Below, one piece after another: positions 10,444 through 59,604 of a stretch of DNA of 64,000 nucleotides (positions are counted from its first letter, which is position 1; each line of letters starts with the position of its first letter). Location: assembly GCA_958296125.1 (NCBI GenBank), contig OY282444.1, positions 3,381,623-3,445,622 on the forward strand, given 5' to 3'. Origin of the DNA: an uncultured Poribacteria bacterium. GTDB lineage: Bacteria; Poribacteria; WGA-4E; PCPOR2b. Made by a program: the position numbers and the translations under genes. Below the pieces are notes generated by a model that worked only from the letters and a program-made list of their open reading frames with translations, was not told where the DNA came from and searched no databases.

Positions 10444-13400
10444 ATGCAACTTAATCGCCACCAGACCCGCCAACTCCTAAAAAACTTTGAATTTGAAACC
10501 CTCCTGACTGAAGAACTCGGTTGGGACCATCACAAAGGAGAAGTCAAAGCTGAAATCCGAGAAGGGGAGGGTGATGAAAGCGAATACCTATTGATCGCAA
10601 TCGCCCAAAAACGCGGGATGGGTGTCTTTCTGTGCCCCGCAGGGCCCGATGGAAATGTTCCAGATTATGCGATCCGGCGTAAAATCCAACGAGAGGTTGC
10701 CAAATCTGTCTACGAACACATCATCATCTACGCCGCCCCCCTTTGCCCCCCAGTTCACGGGGGGGAGAAAGGGGGGGCCACACAAATCTGGCAGTGGGTC
10801 AAACGAGAGCAAGGGAAACCAGCCGCATGTCGTGAACATCGTTATCATTCAGAACAGTCCGGCGAATCCCTAATTCAAAAACTCGAAACAATTGCTTTTA
10901 GCTTAGACGAGGAAGAAGATCTCACCCTGCCGGACGTAACCGGGCGCGTTCAGGCTGCCTTCGATGTGGAACGTATAACCAAACGATTTTATGACCGTTT
11001 CAAAACGGAACACGCTCGATTTCTCAAATTTCTCAACGGGATTCCCGACCAAGAGATGGAACGCTGGTATGCCTCGGTGATGCTGAATCGTCTGATGTTC
11101 ATCTACTTTATCCAAAAAAAGGGCTTCCTGAACGACGACACGGACTATTTGCGGACCCAGCTCAAAGAGACCCAAGTCAAGGGTACTGATCGATACTACA
11201 CCGATTTTCTCTGTCCACTCTTCTTTGAGGGATTCGCGAAACCGGAGCCCGAACGGAGCGGAACGGCGAAGCGGCTGCTCGGAAAGGTGCCTTACCTGAA
11301 CGGCGGCATCTTTCAGCGACACCAACTTGAGGAAATGGAGTACCCCCCTGGCCCCCCGCAAGCGGGGGGAAAGGAAGGGCGAGCCTCCGCAAGTGGGGGA
11401 GGGGAAGGGCGAGCCCCCGCAAGTGGGGAGGAGGGAAGGTCGATTCAAATTGCTGACGCTGCATTTGAGGGGCTTTTTGACTTCTTTGATGCTTACGAAT
11501 GGCACCTTGATGAACGTCCGCTGCGGAGCGATAACGAAATTAACCCGGATGTCCTCGGCTACATCTTTGAAAAATACATCAACCAGAAGCAGATGGGCGC
11601 GTATTACACCAAAGAGGATATCACAGAGTATATCAGCAAAAATACGGTGATTCCCTTTCTCTTTGATGCCGCACGAAAGGCGTGTAAAATCGCCTTTGAA
11701 CCAGTAGGAGGGATCTCCGATCCCGATGCTTCAGGGGGAGGGATTTCTGCTTCAGGAGGAGGGATTTCTAATCCCGATTCAGTCGGAGGGAGCGTCTGGC
11801 AACTGCTACGAGCCGACCCAAACCGTTACATCTACGATGCCGTCAAAAGGGGTGTCGAATTAGATTTACCAGAACATATTGCGGCAGGGATTGACGATGT
11901 ATCTAAACGCACGATGTGGAACGAGCCCGCGCCCAATAAATACGCTCTGCCCACCGAGATATGGCGAGAGACCGTCGCGCGGCGGAACCGATACGAAAAA
12001 ATTCACGCCAAGCTGTCAAACGGAGAAATAGACGATATTAATGCCCTCATTACCTATAACCTCAACATCCGTCAATTCGCACACGACGTAATTGAAAATT
12101 GTGAGGGGCCCGAACTGCTCCGCGCCTTCTGGAAAGCTATCACTGAGGTAACAATCCTTGATCCAACCTGCGGTTCCGGGGCGTTCCTATTTGCCGCCCT
12201 CAATATCCTTGAACCGCTCTATGAAGTGTGTCTGAATCGGATGCAAACCTTTCTTGACGAGTTAGAACATTTCCCCCGTGGGAGTGATCTCCGATCACGA
12301 ATCCCCGAAAAATTTAGCGATTTCCGCAAAATCCTTGAAAACATCGAACAGCACCCCAACCGCCGTTATTTCATCCTCAAATCCATCATCATCAACAACC
12401 TCTACGGCGTAGACATTATGGAGGAGGCGATAGAGATTTGCAAGTTGCGGCTCTTCCTCAAAATGGTGGCGCAGATTGAGGAGGTAAAGCAGATTGAACC
12501 GCTGCCCGACATCGACTTTAACATACAAGCGGGGAATACGCTCGTCGGATATGCGACATACGACGAGGTAGAAAAAGCGGTCACCGGTAAACTAGACTTC
12601 GACAACACCATCAACCGTATTAAAGAAAGCGCGGAGGATATCGAGCAGTTGTTTAATCTGTTTCGTCAACAGCAAACGGACTTGGGCGGTGCCGTGAGGT
12701 CTGATGATAAACAAGTGCTCCGCGATAAACTCAAGGCGTTAGAAGATGAACTCAACCGATTCCTCGCTGATGAATACAAGGTAGATCTGAACAAGCAAGC
12801 TGCTTATCAGAGCTGGCTATCTTCGCACAAGCCGTTCCACTGGTTCATTGAATTTTACGGAATTCTCAAGAACGGTGGATTTGATGTGATTATTGGAAAT
12901 CCACCGTATGTTTCTATTCGGAAAATAGACTATACATCTAGTCTTGAAGAAAGACTAAAGTTACCTGACTTATACGGTTATGTCTTAATTCGGTCCCTTG
13001 ATCTGAGCTCCGATAATGGAAGAAATGGTATGATAATACCATTGTCTATTACTTTCAGTCGTGATTTTTCACTATTACGCGAGAGTTTATATGTTGAAGG
13101 AATCTCTTGGTTTTCGTCTTTTGACAAGAGCCCGGCCTCAATATTTGCAGGGGTTAACCAAAGGTGTTCTATTTGGATAGGCTGCAAGTGTAAGTCTATA
13201 GAACGCGCCTGCTTTTCAAGCCCTATGTATCGTTGGCGTTCGATCACGAGATCCTGCTTAATAGATAGAATAAATTATGTAAAAATCGCCTGGAAAAATA
13301 ACAAGGTATTGGGGATCCCCAAAATCCATGATACTGTTCTTTCCAAAGTTCTTGATATAATAGATGTTAGAACACACAAACCGTCTCAACGCGTTTTCGC

Positions 13401-15804: not shown

Positions 15805-15870
15805 GATTTAAACGACAACATCAAATACCGAATGGGGTTGGGAAACTGACCCGACCCAAGTAGAGTAAAC

Positions 15871-16016
15871 CGATTTTGGCGGGTCGTCCGTTCCAGCCCC
15901 GATGCAATCGGGGAGTCCGTGCCGAGACCGGGCAGGCAGGCGGAACGGGAGACGATCTATCCGGGAGACCAGGGAACGCTCCTCCTCCCCCCGCTTGCGG
16001 GGGGATTAAGGGGGGT
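15871..16016. repeat. palindromic repeats around the DprA-like start
   Basis: CCGTTCC...GGAACGG arms flank a CCCCGAT/ATCGGGG core (15897-15913). A second palindrome, CCCCCCGC/GCGGGGGG, at 15985-16003 is of the same class as those in the methylase. The second one is translated in frame inside the DprA-like ORF. Confidence 0.55.
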
Positions 16017-16668
16017 ATGCGGAGAGATTCGAGTTGAACAATTGGAACACATCACACAAAGGGATCTCAACTACCCAGCGCAGTTGAAAGGGTATTTGCA
16101 AGCAGAAGCCCCAGAAATAATCTGGGCGCGGGGGAATATCGCCCTGTTGACAGATCGGGACACCAGCTTAAACGGAGACCTCTGGGCACTTTTCTGTTCT
16201 AGCAGATGTCCCGCCCAGATTATCTTGAAAGCGCATGAATTGGCTCAACAATTCCGGGAATCAGGGATGCCCACCATCGGCGGGTATCACTCCCCGGTTG
16301 AAAAGGAATGCCTTCGCGTCCTGCTGCGCGGTTCACAACCGATTATCCTATGTCCCGCCCGGAGTATCGAAAATATGCGACTGAGTCCAGCGTGGAAAGG
16401 GGCGTTAGCAGAGGGACGTTTGTTACTCCTGTCTATCTTTAGTAGCAAACATCGACGATCGACCGCAGCATTGGCGAGTCAGCGCAACGTATTTGTTGCG
16501 GCACTGGCGGACAAGATATGTATCGCCCACGCCTCGGAGGGTAGCAGGACGCTGCAATTCGCACATCAGGTATCGAAATGGGGCAAACCCCTTTTCACCT
16601 TTGACACACCGGCAAACAGATCGCTTTTTCAATGTGGGGCGCAGCGGATAGAGGCCGCTTGTATCTGA
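15919..16668 (+). CDS. DprA/Smf-like Rossmann protein
   Basis: 249 residues from a GTG at 15919; no good ribosome site is seen, so the true start is uncertain and could be later. The core resembles DprA (DNA-processing protein): YPAQLKGYL, WARGN, a GGYHSPVEKECLRVLLRG nucleotide-binding-type loop, ILCPARSI, and a later NVFVAAL...SEGSRTLQFA segment. It is shorter than true competence DprA (about 360) and has no winged-helix C-terminus. Variants like this occur beside restriction or other defence genes. The N-terminus includes a translated palindromic repeat (LPPLAGGLRG), which obscures the start. It closes the defence-like cluster; a role in binding or sensing foreign single-stranded DNA is inference. 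Confidence 0.65.
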   Translation: MPRPGRQAERETIYPGDQGTLLLPPLAGGLRGVCGEIRVEQLEHITQRDLNYPAQLKGYLQAEAPEIIWARGNIALLTDRDTSLNGDLWALFCSSRCPAQIILKAHELAQQFRESGMPTIGGYHSPVEKECLRVLLRGSQPIILCPARSIENMRLSPAWKGALAEGRLLLLSIFSSKHRRSTAALASQRNVFVAALADKICIAHASEGSRTLQFAHQVSKWGKPLFTFDTPANRSLFQCGAQRIEAACI

Positions 16669-48635: not shown

Positions 48636-50705
48636 TTACTCCTCCGCTTCCGATTTCACTTCAGCAATCACTTTTTGGGCGAGTTCATCGGGCATCGCCT
48701 CATAATGTGAAAACTCCATTGTGAAGCTGCCTCGCGCACTTGTAATCGATTTAAGATCTATCGAATATCGGAACATCTCTGCCAACGGCGCGGTCGCTTG
48801 GATCACCTGACGTTTGCCCGCTTGTTCAACCCCCATGATTCTGCCGCGTTTGCTATTGAGGTCACCGATAATATCCCCCATGAATTGTTCCGGAACAGAG
48901 ATTGTGACGTTCATAATCGGCTCAAGCATCACCGGATTGGATTGGTTTGCCGCCTCTCGAAACGCAAAAGATCCAGCAATCTGGAAAGCCATATCTGAGG
49001 AATCGACAGGGTGATGCTTGCCATCGTAAAGCTCAACTTGAGCGTCAACGAAGGGATAACCAGCAATCAGACCTTGAGCCATTGTCTCACGGATTCCTTT
49101 CTCAACCGCGGGGATGTAATTACGCGGAATCGAACCCCCCACAACCTGATTGACAAACTCAAAGCCGGCACCACGCTCAAGCGGAGAAAGATTAATCCAA
49201 ACCTCACCAAACTGCCCACGTCCACCAGATTGGCGTTTATACCGACCTTGGATACGACTCGCCCTGCCGCGAATTGTCTCCTGATAGGAGACTTTTGGCA
49301 TTTCGACCTCAGTTTCAATGCCAAACTTGTCTCGCATCCGATTGCGTATGACGGTGAGATGTATCTCGCCAAGGCCGGAGACCAGCAACTGTTTCGTTGT
49401 GCTATTTCGTTCAACTTGGAATGATGGGTCCTCTTCCATCATCCGGGAGAGGGTCGAGCTCAGTTTCTCGTCATCTCCTTCTCGTGCAGGCTTGATGGCG
49501 ACCGAGATAACAGGCTTAGGGAATTCACAGCCAGGAAGTTGGAATGAACTGCCCACGTCGCAGAGTGTGTCATCCGTTTGTGCAAGCGTCAATTTAGAGA
49601 CAACCCCGATATCGCCCGCGGAGACTTGGGGCGCGTTAATGGAGGTTTTCCCGTTCATGAATGCGAGCTTGCCGATTCGTTCATTCTCATCTTTCGTTGC
49701 GTTGTAGACCTGAGAATCGCTATTTAACACGCCGCAATAAACACGGAAGAAACTCAGGCGACCCGCGAACGGGTCCGCCAATGTCTTAAAAACCAACGCC
49801 GACAATGGTGAATCCGGGGAGGCCTCATAGGTTGTTTCACCATCAATTCCTGTAACCGGTCTAGCATCTACCGGGGATGGGCAGCAGTTGGTAATCACGT
49901 CCATCAGAGGTTGGACACCAATATTCCGCAGGGCATCACCACAGAGCACGGGGACGAACTGATTGGCACATAATCCTGTACGAAGGCCAGCCCCAATCTC
50001 TTCGTCGGTGAGTTCACCTTCAAAGAACTTTTCAATCAGTTCATCATCGCTTTCTGCTGCAACCTCAACAAGCTGCTCTCGTATTTCTTCCGCCTGCGCT
50101 TCAAGCTCGGAAGGAACATCTGATTTTGCTGAAGGTTTATTATCCGGCGGTTCTGTGAACGCTCCCATCTGGATGAGATCGACGGCCCCTTTAAAGTCAG
50201 TTTCTTTACCAATTGGCACTTGTGTCGCAGTCGTTCGGGCTTCAAGAATCTCATCAACGCTCGCAAGTGCATTTTCAAAACTAGCATTCTCTTTATCCAT
50301 TTTGTTGATAAAAATCAGCCGTGGGAGTCCATATCTATCAGCCGCTTCCCATACTTTCTCCGTACCCCCTTCAACGCCGGTTGTTGCATCAATGACCACA
50401 ATAACGGCATCTACCACTCGCAGTACGCTCTCGAGATCTCCATAAAAATCCTCAGCACCGGGCGTATCGATAACATTAAACTTGTGCCCTTTCCACTCGG
50501 CGACACACACAGAACAGTTAATTGTCATCTTGCGTTCAATTTCATCGGGGGCATAATCTGAAACTGAATTTCCATCATCGACTTGTCCCATCCGCTCAAT
50601 TGCGCCCCCATTATAGAGTATCGCTTCGATGAGTGAAGTCTTCCCTGTGCCCAAATGCCCAATAACACCGATATTCCGAATCTGTTCCGTCTGATATTCC
50701 TTCAT
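48636..50705 (-). CDS. EF-G-like translation GTPase (EF-G2 type)
   Basis: 689 residues from ATG 50705 with AAGGAG 8 nt upstream. G1 GHLGTGKTS, G3 DTPG, G4 NKMD are present, followed by EF-G domains II-V (SGLGEIHL, FEFVNQVVGGSIPRNYIPAVEKGI, GEFMGDIIGDL-type region). Switch I reads ERKMTI where classical EF-G has ERGITI, which points to the EF-G2/EF-G-like paralog group rather than the main translocase. It lies outside any rpsL-rpsG-tuf operon. It could act in ribosome recycling or rescue; that is inference. Confidence 0.88.
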   Translation of the reverse strand: MKEYQTEQIRNIGVIGHLGTGKTSLIEAILYNGGAIERMGQVDDGNSVSDYAPDEIERKMTINCSVCVAEWKGHKFNVIDTPGAEDFYGDLESVLRVVDAVIVVIDATTGVEGGTEKVWEAADRYGLPRLIFINKMDKENASFENALASVDEILEARTTATQVPIGKETDFKGAVDLIQMGAFTEPPDNKPSAKSDVPSELEAQAEEIREQLVEVAAESDDELIEKFFEGELTDEEIGAGLRTGLCANQFVPVLCGDALRNIGVQPLMDVITNCCPSPVDARPVTGIDGETTYEASPDSPLSALVFKTLADPFAGRLSFFRVYCGVLNSDSQVYNATKDENERIGKLAFMNGKTSINAPQVSAGDIGVVSKLTLAQTDDTLCDVGSSFQLPGCEFPKPVISVAIKPAREGDDEKLSSTLSRMMEEDPSFQVERNSTTKQLLVSGLGEIHLTVIRNRMRDKFGIETEVEMPKVSYQETIRGRASRIQGRYKRQSGGRGQFGEVWINLSPLERGAGFEFVNQVVGGSIPRNYIPAVEKGIRETMAQGLIAGYPFVDAQVELYDGKHHPVDSSDMAFQIAGSFAFREAANQSNPVMLEPIMNVTISVPEQFMGDIIGDLNSKRGRIMGVEQAGKRQVIQATAPLAEMFRYSIDLKSITSARGSFTMEFSHYEAMPDELAQKVIAEVKSEAEE

Positions 50706-51022
50706 CAAAAAACTCCTTACGGTATCAGTTTAACCAAAAACATCGCAGAAATATGCAATTAAGCAAGTTTGTAAATTTTTGTCTGTTTGAATTGGATCTA
50801 ATGTCACTTTTACCCGGTTCCTCTGTAGGCCCCCTATGTGCTGTTTACCCTCGAACCCTTCCGACGAACATCTTACACAACCCAATCAAGCAAAGGGATT
50901 GGCAGTTACTGTTAATCAACCTTCAAACTTTTCAGAATCTCCTCAATTGAGAAAGAGAGAGCACATTAAGGTGCCATCTACTAAATCTCGACCTACTTTG
51001 GAAATTGCTAAAAACGTTGGTG

Positions 51023-51051
51023 ATTGTAGCACACCCCTATAGGAAATGCAA
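51023..51051 (-). promoter_or_regulatory. possible promoter with long leader to the EF-G-like gene
   Basis: Minus strand TTGCAT, 17 bp, TACAAT. The predicted leader to the ATG at 50705 is about 310 nt, without an ORF or riboswitch that I recognise. Confidence 0.4.
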
Positions 51052-51060
51052 GTAAAAAGA

Positions 51061-51149
51061 ATTCGATCAATAGGGCTATTTAGTTTTCCGTTTTTTGACC
51101 GATTTTGGCAGGGACGGCCCGAAGAATTAAATGACCCTAATTCGATCAA
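51061..51149. mobile_element. MITE with 10-bp target duplication
   Basis: The element 51071-51139 (69 bp) begins TAGGGCTATTTAGTT and ends AATTAAATGACCCTA, imperfect inverted ends. It is flanked on both sides by the exact direct repeat ATTCGATCAA (51061-51070 and 51140-51149). The same ends occur at 59517-59604. No coding capacity. Confidence 0.7.
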
Positions 51150-51158
51150 TTTTTCCCT

Positions 51159-51187
51159 TTGACAATATCACAATTTTAGTCTATACT
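51159..51187 (+). promoter_or_regulatory. sigma70 promoter of the small membrane ORF and TauE/SafE gene
   Basis: TTGACA, 17 bp, TATACT, ten bases after the MITE target duplication. Predicted start near 51194. Confidence 0.65.
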
Positions 51188-51292
51188 TGCAATGTATGAG
51201 TACACGATGGCGTGAGGCCCTAATACCCCTAACCTCTACTTCTGCCGCGCGGTACGAGAGGATTTTGATGTTCCACCGAATTGGAGTTCCAC

Positions 51293-51433
51293 ATGAAAGG
51301 CATTTTCAACGTTCTAATCTGTTTACTCTTTCCTATAGCTTGGGGGGCACTTATCAACTGGATCTTTATCTTTCTCGAACGCCGTACCGGCCGTTCAACT
51401 CCCCCCGACCCGAGAATCGATTATCACATTTGA
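51293..51433 (+). CDS. 46-residue single-span membrane protein
   Basis: ATG 51293 behind TTGGAG. The sequence begins MKGIFNVLICLLFPIAWG, continues hydrophobic to about residue 28, then ends in a basic and polar tail (ERRTGRSTPPDPRIDY). It starts about 100 nt after a strong promoter and stops 14 bp before the TauE/SafE start, so it is probably the first gene of that operon and could be a small partner of the permease. Family not recognised. Confidence 0.55.
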   Translation: MKGIFNVLICLLFPIAWGALINWIFIFLERRTGRSTPPDPRIDYHI

Positions 51434-51447
51434 ATCCATAACGCTAG

Positions 51448-52350
51448 ATGAACGTCGATATCAGTGGTATACCTGTTAATATCTTGGGATTGGTTAGTTT
51501 AGGGTGTATCAGCGGCTTTCTGTCAGGTTTCTTCGGAATCGGCGGTGGACCGCTAATCACGCCAGTCCTTAATATCTTATTTGGCATTCCCTTCCCAATT
51601 TGCGTCGGGAGTACGCTTTCTCGGACGGCTGGCACCTCTTTCTCTACCGCATTGCGGTATTGGAAGTTCGGTGATATTGATGCAAAACTGGCATTGATGA
51701 TGGTTGGGGGTAATTTTGTCGGCATTGAGCTCGGGGTCTATTTGCTCGACTGGTTGGATAAACTGGGAGCGATTAATGTCGGAAAGCAATCAATTCCAGC
51801 ACTTCAGTTTTACCTGCAATGGCTCTTCTTCGGGGTGCTTATCACCGTTTCAGGGTTGATTTTCATAGAATCACTGATTCGCAGAGGGAGAAGAAGTCGC
51901 AAACAGCCCCTCGGCTTACTTCAAAGCCTCCCCATCCCACCTTATGTTTCCTTTCCTAGCAGCGGCGTTCGTCAGATCTCACTCCTAGCAGTTGTTTACT
52001 CAGCAGTTGTCATTTGTGTTTTCACAGGGTTGCTCGGGATTGGAGGCGGCGTACTCTTTGTACCGCTGTTGATCTACGGATATGGCGTTGAAACGCATGC
52101 GGCAGTTGGCACGGTTTCGCTTATCGTGTTTTTTTCCGCTGTTTATGGGACTGCTACCCATGCAATGCGAGGCAATGTCGATTTAGGGTTGGTTGTGCTT
52201 TTGCTGATCGGATCCACAATCTGTGCACAGGTTGGGGCAATCGCCAATCAAAGAATACATGGCGATTCAATCCGCTTCTGTTTTGCGTTTATTGTTTTGA
52301 TTGTAGCGGGGATGATCTGCTTCAATCTGCTACGCACAATCTATGGGTAA
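51448..52350 (+). CDS. TauE/SafE-family anion permease
   Basis: 300 residues, about eight membrane spans. The two repeated half motifs of the family are clear: FFGIGGGPLITPVL near residue 30 and LLGIGGGVLFVPLL near residue 195. Members carry sulfite, sulfoacetate or other organosulfonates outward or inward. No sulfur-metabolism gene is adjacent, so the substrate is open. Confidence 0.88.
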   Translation: MNVDISGIPVNILGLVSLGCISGFLSGFFGIGGGPLITPVLNILFGIPFPICVGSTLSRTAGTSFSTALRYWKFGDIDAKLALMMVGGNFVGIELGVYLLDWLDKLGAINVGKQSIPALQFYLQWLFFGVLITVSGLIFIESLIRRGRRSRKQPLGLLQSLPIPPYVSFPSSGVRQISLLAVVYSAVVICVFTGLLGIGGGVLFVPLLIYGYGVETHAAVGTVSLIVFFSAVYGTATHAMRGNVDLGLVVLLLIGSTICAQVGAIANQRIHGDSIRFCFAFIVLIVAGMICFNLLRTIYG

Positions 52351-59516: not shown

Positions 59517-59604
59517 TAGGGCTATTTAGTTTTCGAGTTTCTTCCTGTCTGAGTAGGAGGTCGGGATTCGGAGATCCTTCCTACAGGAGAACTAAATGAC
59601 CCTA
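59517..59604. mobile_element. MITE, second copy
   Basis: Begins TAGGGCTATTTAGTTTTC and ends GAACTAAATGACCCTA; same ends as at 51071-51139, middle different. No target duplication is visible. It lies in the divergent gap between moaB and the DUF5069 gene, and its right end supplies an ATG (59596) that could be mistaken for a start codon. Confidence 0.6.

Follow-up and report, generated by a model that had tools for sequence, protein, structure and literature searches.

The 69 bp element at 51071–51139 of the window, by which we mean the whole 64,000-nucleotide stretch of poribacterial DNA that was analysed, is very probably (a probability of about 0.92, judged from its sequence) a non-autonomous miniature element (MITE) of the ISAs1 insertion-sequence family. 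As far as our searches show, the ISAs1-derived MITE family to which it belongs is orphaned in the host genome (G000). The parent family was putatively assigned from the ends of the element, the length of its target duplication, an ISAs1 element ending in TAGGG in another Poribacterial genome, and a transposase relic in the host.

A 69 bp element with an intact target duplication

The element and the repeats that border it are as follows.

51061–51070, no strand: left copy of the 10 bp target duplication ATTCGATCAA (direct reading, repeat finder)
51071–51139, plus strand: MITE of 69 bp, sub-type A, with left end TAGGGCTATTTAGTTTTCCGTTTTTTGACCGATTTTGGC and right end (inverse) TAGGGTCATTTAATTCTTCGGGCC (direct reading; absent in five of five congeners)
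51140–51149, no strand: right copy of the 10 bp target duplication ATTCGATCAA (direct reading, repeat finder, congener alignment)

On direct reading the element starts with TAGGG, ends with CCCTA and has an exact ATTCGATCAA on either side; the coordinates and repeats of a 69 bp MITE with an intact 10 bp duplication, as described in the first-pass annotation, are thereby upheld. The repeat finder reported AATTCGATCAAT twice at a spacing of 79, one base longer on each side than ATTCGATCAA because the element's own last A and first T match the flank. The element is short and without coding capacity, has inverted ends of the TAGGGCTATTTAGTTTTC / TAGGGTCATTTAATTCTTC type and, being the second shortest among the 40 two-ended copies described below, contains little beyond these two ends. 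A search of the window for its 18-base left end, allowing up to three mismatches, gave three places where 0.04 were expected: exact matches at 51071 and 59517, and an inverted one at 59587–59604 with three mismatches. A 24-letter form of this end was found in named genomes in 21 stretches, all 21 of them from Poribacteria (the window's own record possibly being left out), which makes a Candidatus Poribacterium the very probable host. The window includes further family members, one of them probably decayed.

59517–59604, plus strand: 88 bp copy, the second in the window, lacking a target duplication and having an interior of sub-type B; none of the 4 aligned congeners has an insertion here (sequence and congener alignment)
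15868–16018, plus strand: probable decayed member without terminal TAGGG ends, with a sub-type A interior and palindromic modules (interior 14-mer clusters)

The copy at 59517–59604 has its ends in common with the 69 bp copy and an interior of another type, in keeping with the earlier observation that the two share only their ends. No target duplication was found around it: flanks of 8 to 11 bp differ, at each length, in 6–8 positions.

Empty sites in related genomes

Five congeners (G001–G005) were compared with the host genome, and each of the five has the orthologous intergenic region. The site at 51071 first became visible as overlapping split matches and then by alignment: in each congener AAAAG is followed by one target copy, AATTCGATCAA, and then by promoter-proximal sequence, with the element absent. 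This single target is unchanged in two congeners, carries one change in two others and three changes in the fifth. A single uninterrupted target in five of five congeners means that the 69 bp element inserted in the G000 lineage, and the insertion is specific to that lineage among the six genomes compared. The proposal that the inverted ends and direct repeat record an insertion is confirmed in this way, the empty site to be looked for in relatives having been found in every congener. Identity of the flanks to the congeners, over the longer matched blocks, is about 78–91%, so the insertion at 51071 need not be very recent.

The alignment at 59517 comprised G001, G002, G004 (which appears twice) and G005, with G003 left out. 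The copy at this position is also an insertion, though one without a duplication.

The family in the host genome

The host genome is a single contig of 5.16 Mb (completeness 98.85, contamination 3.93). The 15-base end TAGGGYYATTTARTT occurs in it 90 times exactly (51 + 39 by strand; reversed control 0), and between 10 and 43 times in each of the five congeners (controls 0–1). Allowing up to two mismatches gave 192 ends in G000 against 77 for the control; this looser count is noisy and only near-exact ends were therefore used. Weaker copies lie outside the sample, and two-ended copies were assembled around the listed places only, with pairs of more than 400 bp entering the assembly only when carrying a duplication. 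From 44 assembled rows four were dropped (1194252–1196802, 2074196–2074468, 2087448–2087827 and 3911112–3911292), leaving 40 two-ended copies of 59–321 bp among the places fetched; an incomplete copy at 622695 was counted only in the interior comparison and the open-frame test (n = 41). By eye, the two ends of the family are unlike each other, the left being mostly TAGGGCTATTTAGTTTTC and the right mostly TAGGGTCATTTAATTCTTC.

An exact duplication of 8–11 bp borders 12 of the 40 copies (shuffled partners: mean 0.31, maximum 3 in 2000), and one of 9–10 bp with at most one mismatch borders 19 (shuffled partners: mean 0.5, maximum 4). These 19 duplications are 64% A+T compared with 50% for the fetched DNA. 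In 13 of the 40, the 59517 copy included, there is no 9–10 bp duplication even at two mismatches, and three of these 13 have one of 7–8 bp. The first-pass annotation had looked to other copies for a duplication of similar length; the family supplies it in 19 cases, but the 59517 copy does not. Recombination between MITEs was considered as the origin of the copies without duplications. No swapped 9–10 bp flanks occur among the 40 copies, so this origin is without support here, though it fits two ISAs1 copies in another genome (see below).

Single ends were also examined, 45 of them in G000 under the rules of the flank test. For five, a sequence close to that of the flank recurs no more than 430 bases away (shuffled mean 1.29, maximum 5 in 300), and one of these, 4434176, is a 47 bp copy with a recognisable right end. 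At 2782178 a 33 bp copy with a left end only is followed by an exact copy of its 10 bp flank, and at 4057435 a 38 bp copy, again with a left end only, is followed by a copy of its 10 bp flank with one mismatch. These two cases, in which the right end is missing and the duplication kept, look real, though the overall count of one-ended copies is marginal.

The insertion site and its neighbouring genes

The element lies between two divergent transcription units, with these features.

51159–51187, plus strand: sigma-70-type promoter TTGACA-17-TATACT, predating the insertion (promoter scan; hexamers in congeners)
51293–51433, plus strand: small open reading frame of 46 aa, first of the downstream unit (direct reading)
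51448–52350, plus strand: TauE/SafE-type permease (PF01925) of 300 aa (Pfam)
51023–51051, minus strand: possible divergent promoter TTGCAT-17-TACAAT towards the EF-G gene (reading by eye; hexamers kept in six of six genomes)
48636–50708, minus strand: elongation factor G-like protein of 690 aa, divergent neighbour (Pfam, NCBIfam)

The promoter of the downstream unit has its -35 box TTGACA at 51159–51164 and, after 17 bp, its -10 box TATACT at 51182–51187, agreeing with the consensus at 11 of 12 positions. Nine bases separate the duplication from the -35 box, so the earlier placing of the promoter ten bases after the duplication was accurate; together with the right copy of the duplication, nineteen native bases are left upstream of the box. 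Shuffles of the region yielded 1.9 promoter sites this good on average, which means that the scan by itself is no evidence for a promoter and that conservation among the congeners is: the hexamers are identical in G001, G002 and G003, with TTTACA in G004 and G005. Since the promoter is present in uninterrupted relatives, the insertion did not create it, and the scan reported no promoter inside the 69 bp element. The 46 aa frame has no match in Pfam or NCBIfam up to E 0.001.

A short way to the left of the element, the block GGTGATTGTAGCACACCCCTATRGGAAATGCAAG is nearly unchanged in the six genomes. By eye, the intergenic block at 51019–51059, between the EF-G gene and the insertion site, is conserved above its surroundings in the same six genomes. 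If the divergent promoter has been read correctly, the gap between the two -35 boxes was widened from 28 to 107 bp.

The insertion would place 79 further bases between the upstream conserved block and the permease unit's core promoter, leaving the -35 and -10 boxes intact. As both boxes are untouched, the likeliest effect on expression would be small, or limited to factors binding upstream of about -55. It is unlikely that the insertion was selected for changed expression of the permease or of the divergent EF-G gene through the widening of their back-to-back gap. Both promoter readings are kept in the uninterrupted congeners and the insertion falls between them, as such selection would have it, but the minus-strand promoter is absent from the promoter-scan list and the copies of the family generally keep to intergenic DNA, one of 41 lying inside an open frame of at least 150 aa and five overlapping one in a rough open-frame test. 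Given that the copies are mostly intergenic, neutral survival explains the location at 51071.

ISAs1 as the probable parent family

ISAs1 elements make target duplications of 8–10 bp and have the E. coli H-repeat and IS1358 among their relatives. Their inverted ends of 14–22 bp start with CAGGG and are accompanied by a 10 bp direct repeat, according to an excerpt of one report (PMC11946415). The MITE end, TAGGG, is one base off this, and the remaining end bases agree.

Of 84 genomes from the phylum, 37 have matches to PF13808, the Pfam marker of ISAs1 transposases; the six of the host genus (G000 and the five congeners) have none. Two Poribacterial transposases are ISAs1 by their matches to NF033564, at 224.9 and 216.3 bits with a cut-off of 70, the first also matching PF13808. 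For a survey of ends, 36 loci were taken (16 of the 30 from one search, having a long open frame, and all 20 from another), and six of these were without a long transposase frame, so that 30 were analysed. Ends within 2 mismatches of YAGGGYYATTYARTT are present on both sides at 23 of the 30 Poribacterial loci, and 11 of the 30 have a 9–10 bp duplication with at most one mismatch; the two-ended loci measure 1,316–1,347 bp in 20 of 23 cases. The left end of an ISAs1 element in G081 agrees with the MITE consensus, which was assembled by eye, at 23 of 25 positions and with the variant in the window copy at 22, and the likeness of the MITE to any single ISAs1 element covers about 25 bases only.

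ISAs1 ends nearly always start with C; among 49 of them, T comes first in 3, of which two belong to one G083 element. G083 harbours two ISAs1 copies (L157 and L197) that are identical over 1335 bp and have a TAGGG right end, so a T in first position is probably no bar to ISAs1 parentage. The flanks of L157 and L197 differ within each copy, the left flank of one being the right flank of the other (ATCTATTCTG, AAGACACCA); such an exchange would be expected if two copies in inverted orientation, both with duplications of their own, had recombined. The swapped duplications would fit an inversion between 2.99 and 3.74 Mb in G083.

A transposase relic with the MITE's kind of end

When a G083 transposase was run in a translated search against the nine genomes of the family, two matches came up, one in G007 and one in G000. 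That in G007 is a fragment with a stop. That in G000, at 2010332–2010517, is 49% identical to transposase residues 320–392 in the translated search and 37.5% identical over residues 322–393 in a local search of the same stretch; read in three frames it shifts frame, and it covers the C-terminal part only. Twelve bases past the match, AACTAAATGACCCTA at 2010530–2010544 is the inverse of TAGGGTCATTTAGTT, and the end of the relic, TAGGGTCATTTAGTTTTC, with its outer base at 2010544, is of the TAGGG type. This position had already been classed as a single MITE end before the transposase match there was known. A stretch of palindromic modules adjoins the relic, and congener sequence to the right of its end resumes its match 6–10 bases after it. 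In G001, G002 and G003 the two flanks of the relic (2010332–2010544), left and right, have their matches on separate contigs, as could result from a rearrangement at the insertion sequence or from mere contig breaks.

Open frames were sought beside twelve single ends and beside the two-ended copy at 3774605 (frames of at least 100 aa, up to 2.6 kb inward, the best three per place); one of the twelve, 2010544, only later turned out to be the site of the ISAs1 relic. By eye, none of these 13 places in G000 has a full-length ISAs1-like transposase beside it. No intact ISAs1 gene was found in G000 or the five congeners with PF13808 or by translated search, and a PF01609 search of G000 also gave no match. 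A gene near 1998136 in G000 has what we take to be a TnpB-like look.

To judge by its sequence, then, the sole ISAs1 trace found in G000 is a defunct element whose end is of the type seen in the MITE. A transposon with the same ends, which the first-pass annotation had suggested looking for in the genome, is represented by this frameshifted relic with its TAGGG end and by no intact element. The accompanying suggestion of mobilisation in trans by one transposase fares similarly: the ends do point to one family, ISAs1, but G000 has only a relic of it. With no intact gene found in G000, such mobilisation would lie in the past, and with none found in the congeners either it is from the ends and the relic that we infer movement by ISAs1.

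A driver of another kind, namely an unrelated DDE transposase now lost or outside the models searched, whose ends came to resemble those of ISAs1 by convergence, is distinctly improbable. It would suit the lack of any intact ISAs1 found in the genome or genus, as well as a first base of T instead of C, but leaves to coincidence an agreement of about 25 bases with an ISAs1 left end, an agreement in duplication length, the two identical TAGGG-ended ISAs1 copies of G083 and the presence of such an end on the G000 relic. Hardly any weight can be given to the notion that no transposon is involved and that these are functional repeats or hairpins (a terminator, attenuator or protein-binding site) with a direct repeat by chance: many interiors do contain palindromic modules and the 88 bp copy folds better than its shuffles (z -2.60), but the 69 bp copy folds no better than its own (z -0.39 and 0.35 on the two strands), a search of 50700–51500 against Rfam gave no match up to E 0.1, the sites at 51071 and 59517 are empty in congeners, and duplications in the family are far above shuffles.

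On the preferred reading of an ISAs1-derived MITE, an ISAs1 transposase (DDE type) once present in the lineage would have recognised the 15–25-base ends and moved the short element, joining it between genes, where the DNA is rather rich in A+T, to cuts staggered by 9–10 bp. Later decay of the transposase gene would have left the family unable to move unless an ISAs1 element were to enter the genome again.

Interiors and palindromic modules

Between their conserved ends the copies vary. By eye, we distinguished sub-type A (GTTTTTTGACCGATTTTGGCGGGTAGTCC...), sub-type B (CTCTCTGTCTGAG...TCGGGATTCGGAGATCC), a third type in the copies at 303748 and 719353, and hybrids such as that at 2517684. Many interiors are built of GC-rich palindromic modules, which are found elsewhere in the genome too. 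Beyond its two copies the window has nine clusters of interior 14-mers, counted without a shuffle control so that a cluster of a single 14-mer could be due to chance; one of the nine is the probable decayed member at 15868–16018. The module CCCCCGCAAGCGGGGG has 54 matches in G000 at up to one mismatch, 38 of them exact, against 0 for the reversed control. By hand count, 10 of the 38 exact matches are within the 41 MITE copies and 28 are outside, a few of the latter near single ends. Examples of this module in the window are at 11353 and 15988. The modular interiors are the family's oddest feature.

One possible account of them, which we offer tentatively and consider rather doubtful, is that ISAs1-type ends act as a chassis that collects and spreads unrelated GC-rich palindromic modules, in a family stranded without its driver after the split from the congeners. 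The outer 20–40 bases would then be constant and the middle rebuilt copy by copy from self-multiplying modules; the family would still have been moving after the split, and the transposase would have been lost later. If this account is true, parallel orphan families, with many YAGGG ends and no ISAs1 gene found, would occur in other Poribacteria.

CAGGG ends number 52 in G018, 59 in G022, 44 in G033 and 37 in G024, and G026 has 36 TAGGG ends, with no PF13808 match in any of these genomes. In G018 and G033 some of the listed ends face each other, 130–400 bp apart. The five genomes perhaps hold sister orphan MITE families; absence of PF13808 is weak evidence in G018, G022, G033 and G024, as only G026 is a single contig.

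Relation to known elements and significance

The MITE shares with ISAs1 (NF033564, PF13808) inverted ends of the YAGGGYYATTYARTT form, 15–25 bases long, and duplications of 9–10 bp, and the transposase relic in G000 has the same kind of end. It differs in having no transposase gene, in its size (59–321 bp versus mostly 1,316–1,347 bp) and in its first base (T versus C). Among prokaryotic MITEs, excerpts of two reports describe BrickBuilt of Porphyromonas gingivalis, with IS5-type ends (PMC4596501), and the Tn3-derived TIMEs (PMC4133298). As far as these excerpts go, both resemble the present family in being short, with the inverted ends of a known element and a gene-free core, and BrickBuilt further in being multicopy and intergenic with internal repeats; by comparison, the ends described here are of ISAs1 type and the interiors are mosaics of several GC-rich palindromic modules with further copies elsewhere in the genome. 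The modules themselves are short, GC-rich, palindromic and present in dozens of copies, like repetitive extragenic palindromes (REP), whereas the MITE has terminal inverted repeats and target duplications.

In a literature search, mostly at listing level, neither ISAs1-derived MITEs nor any MITEs of Poribacteria were found described, which is weak evidence that an ISAs1-derived family in Poribacteria is new. MITEs as such are already known, and the Poribacterial ISAs1-type family is an added member. It provides a clean case of a bacterial MITE: the site is empty in every congener compared, the duplication has the parent's length, the parent family occurs elsewhere in the phylum, and the host still contains a dead remnant of it. 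Modular interiors of this kind could be useful for asking how short palindromes multiply in bacterial genomes.
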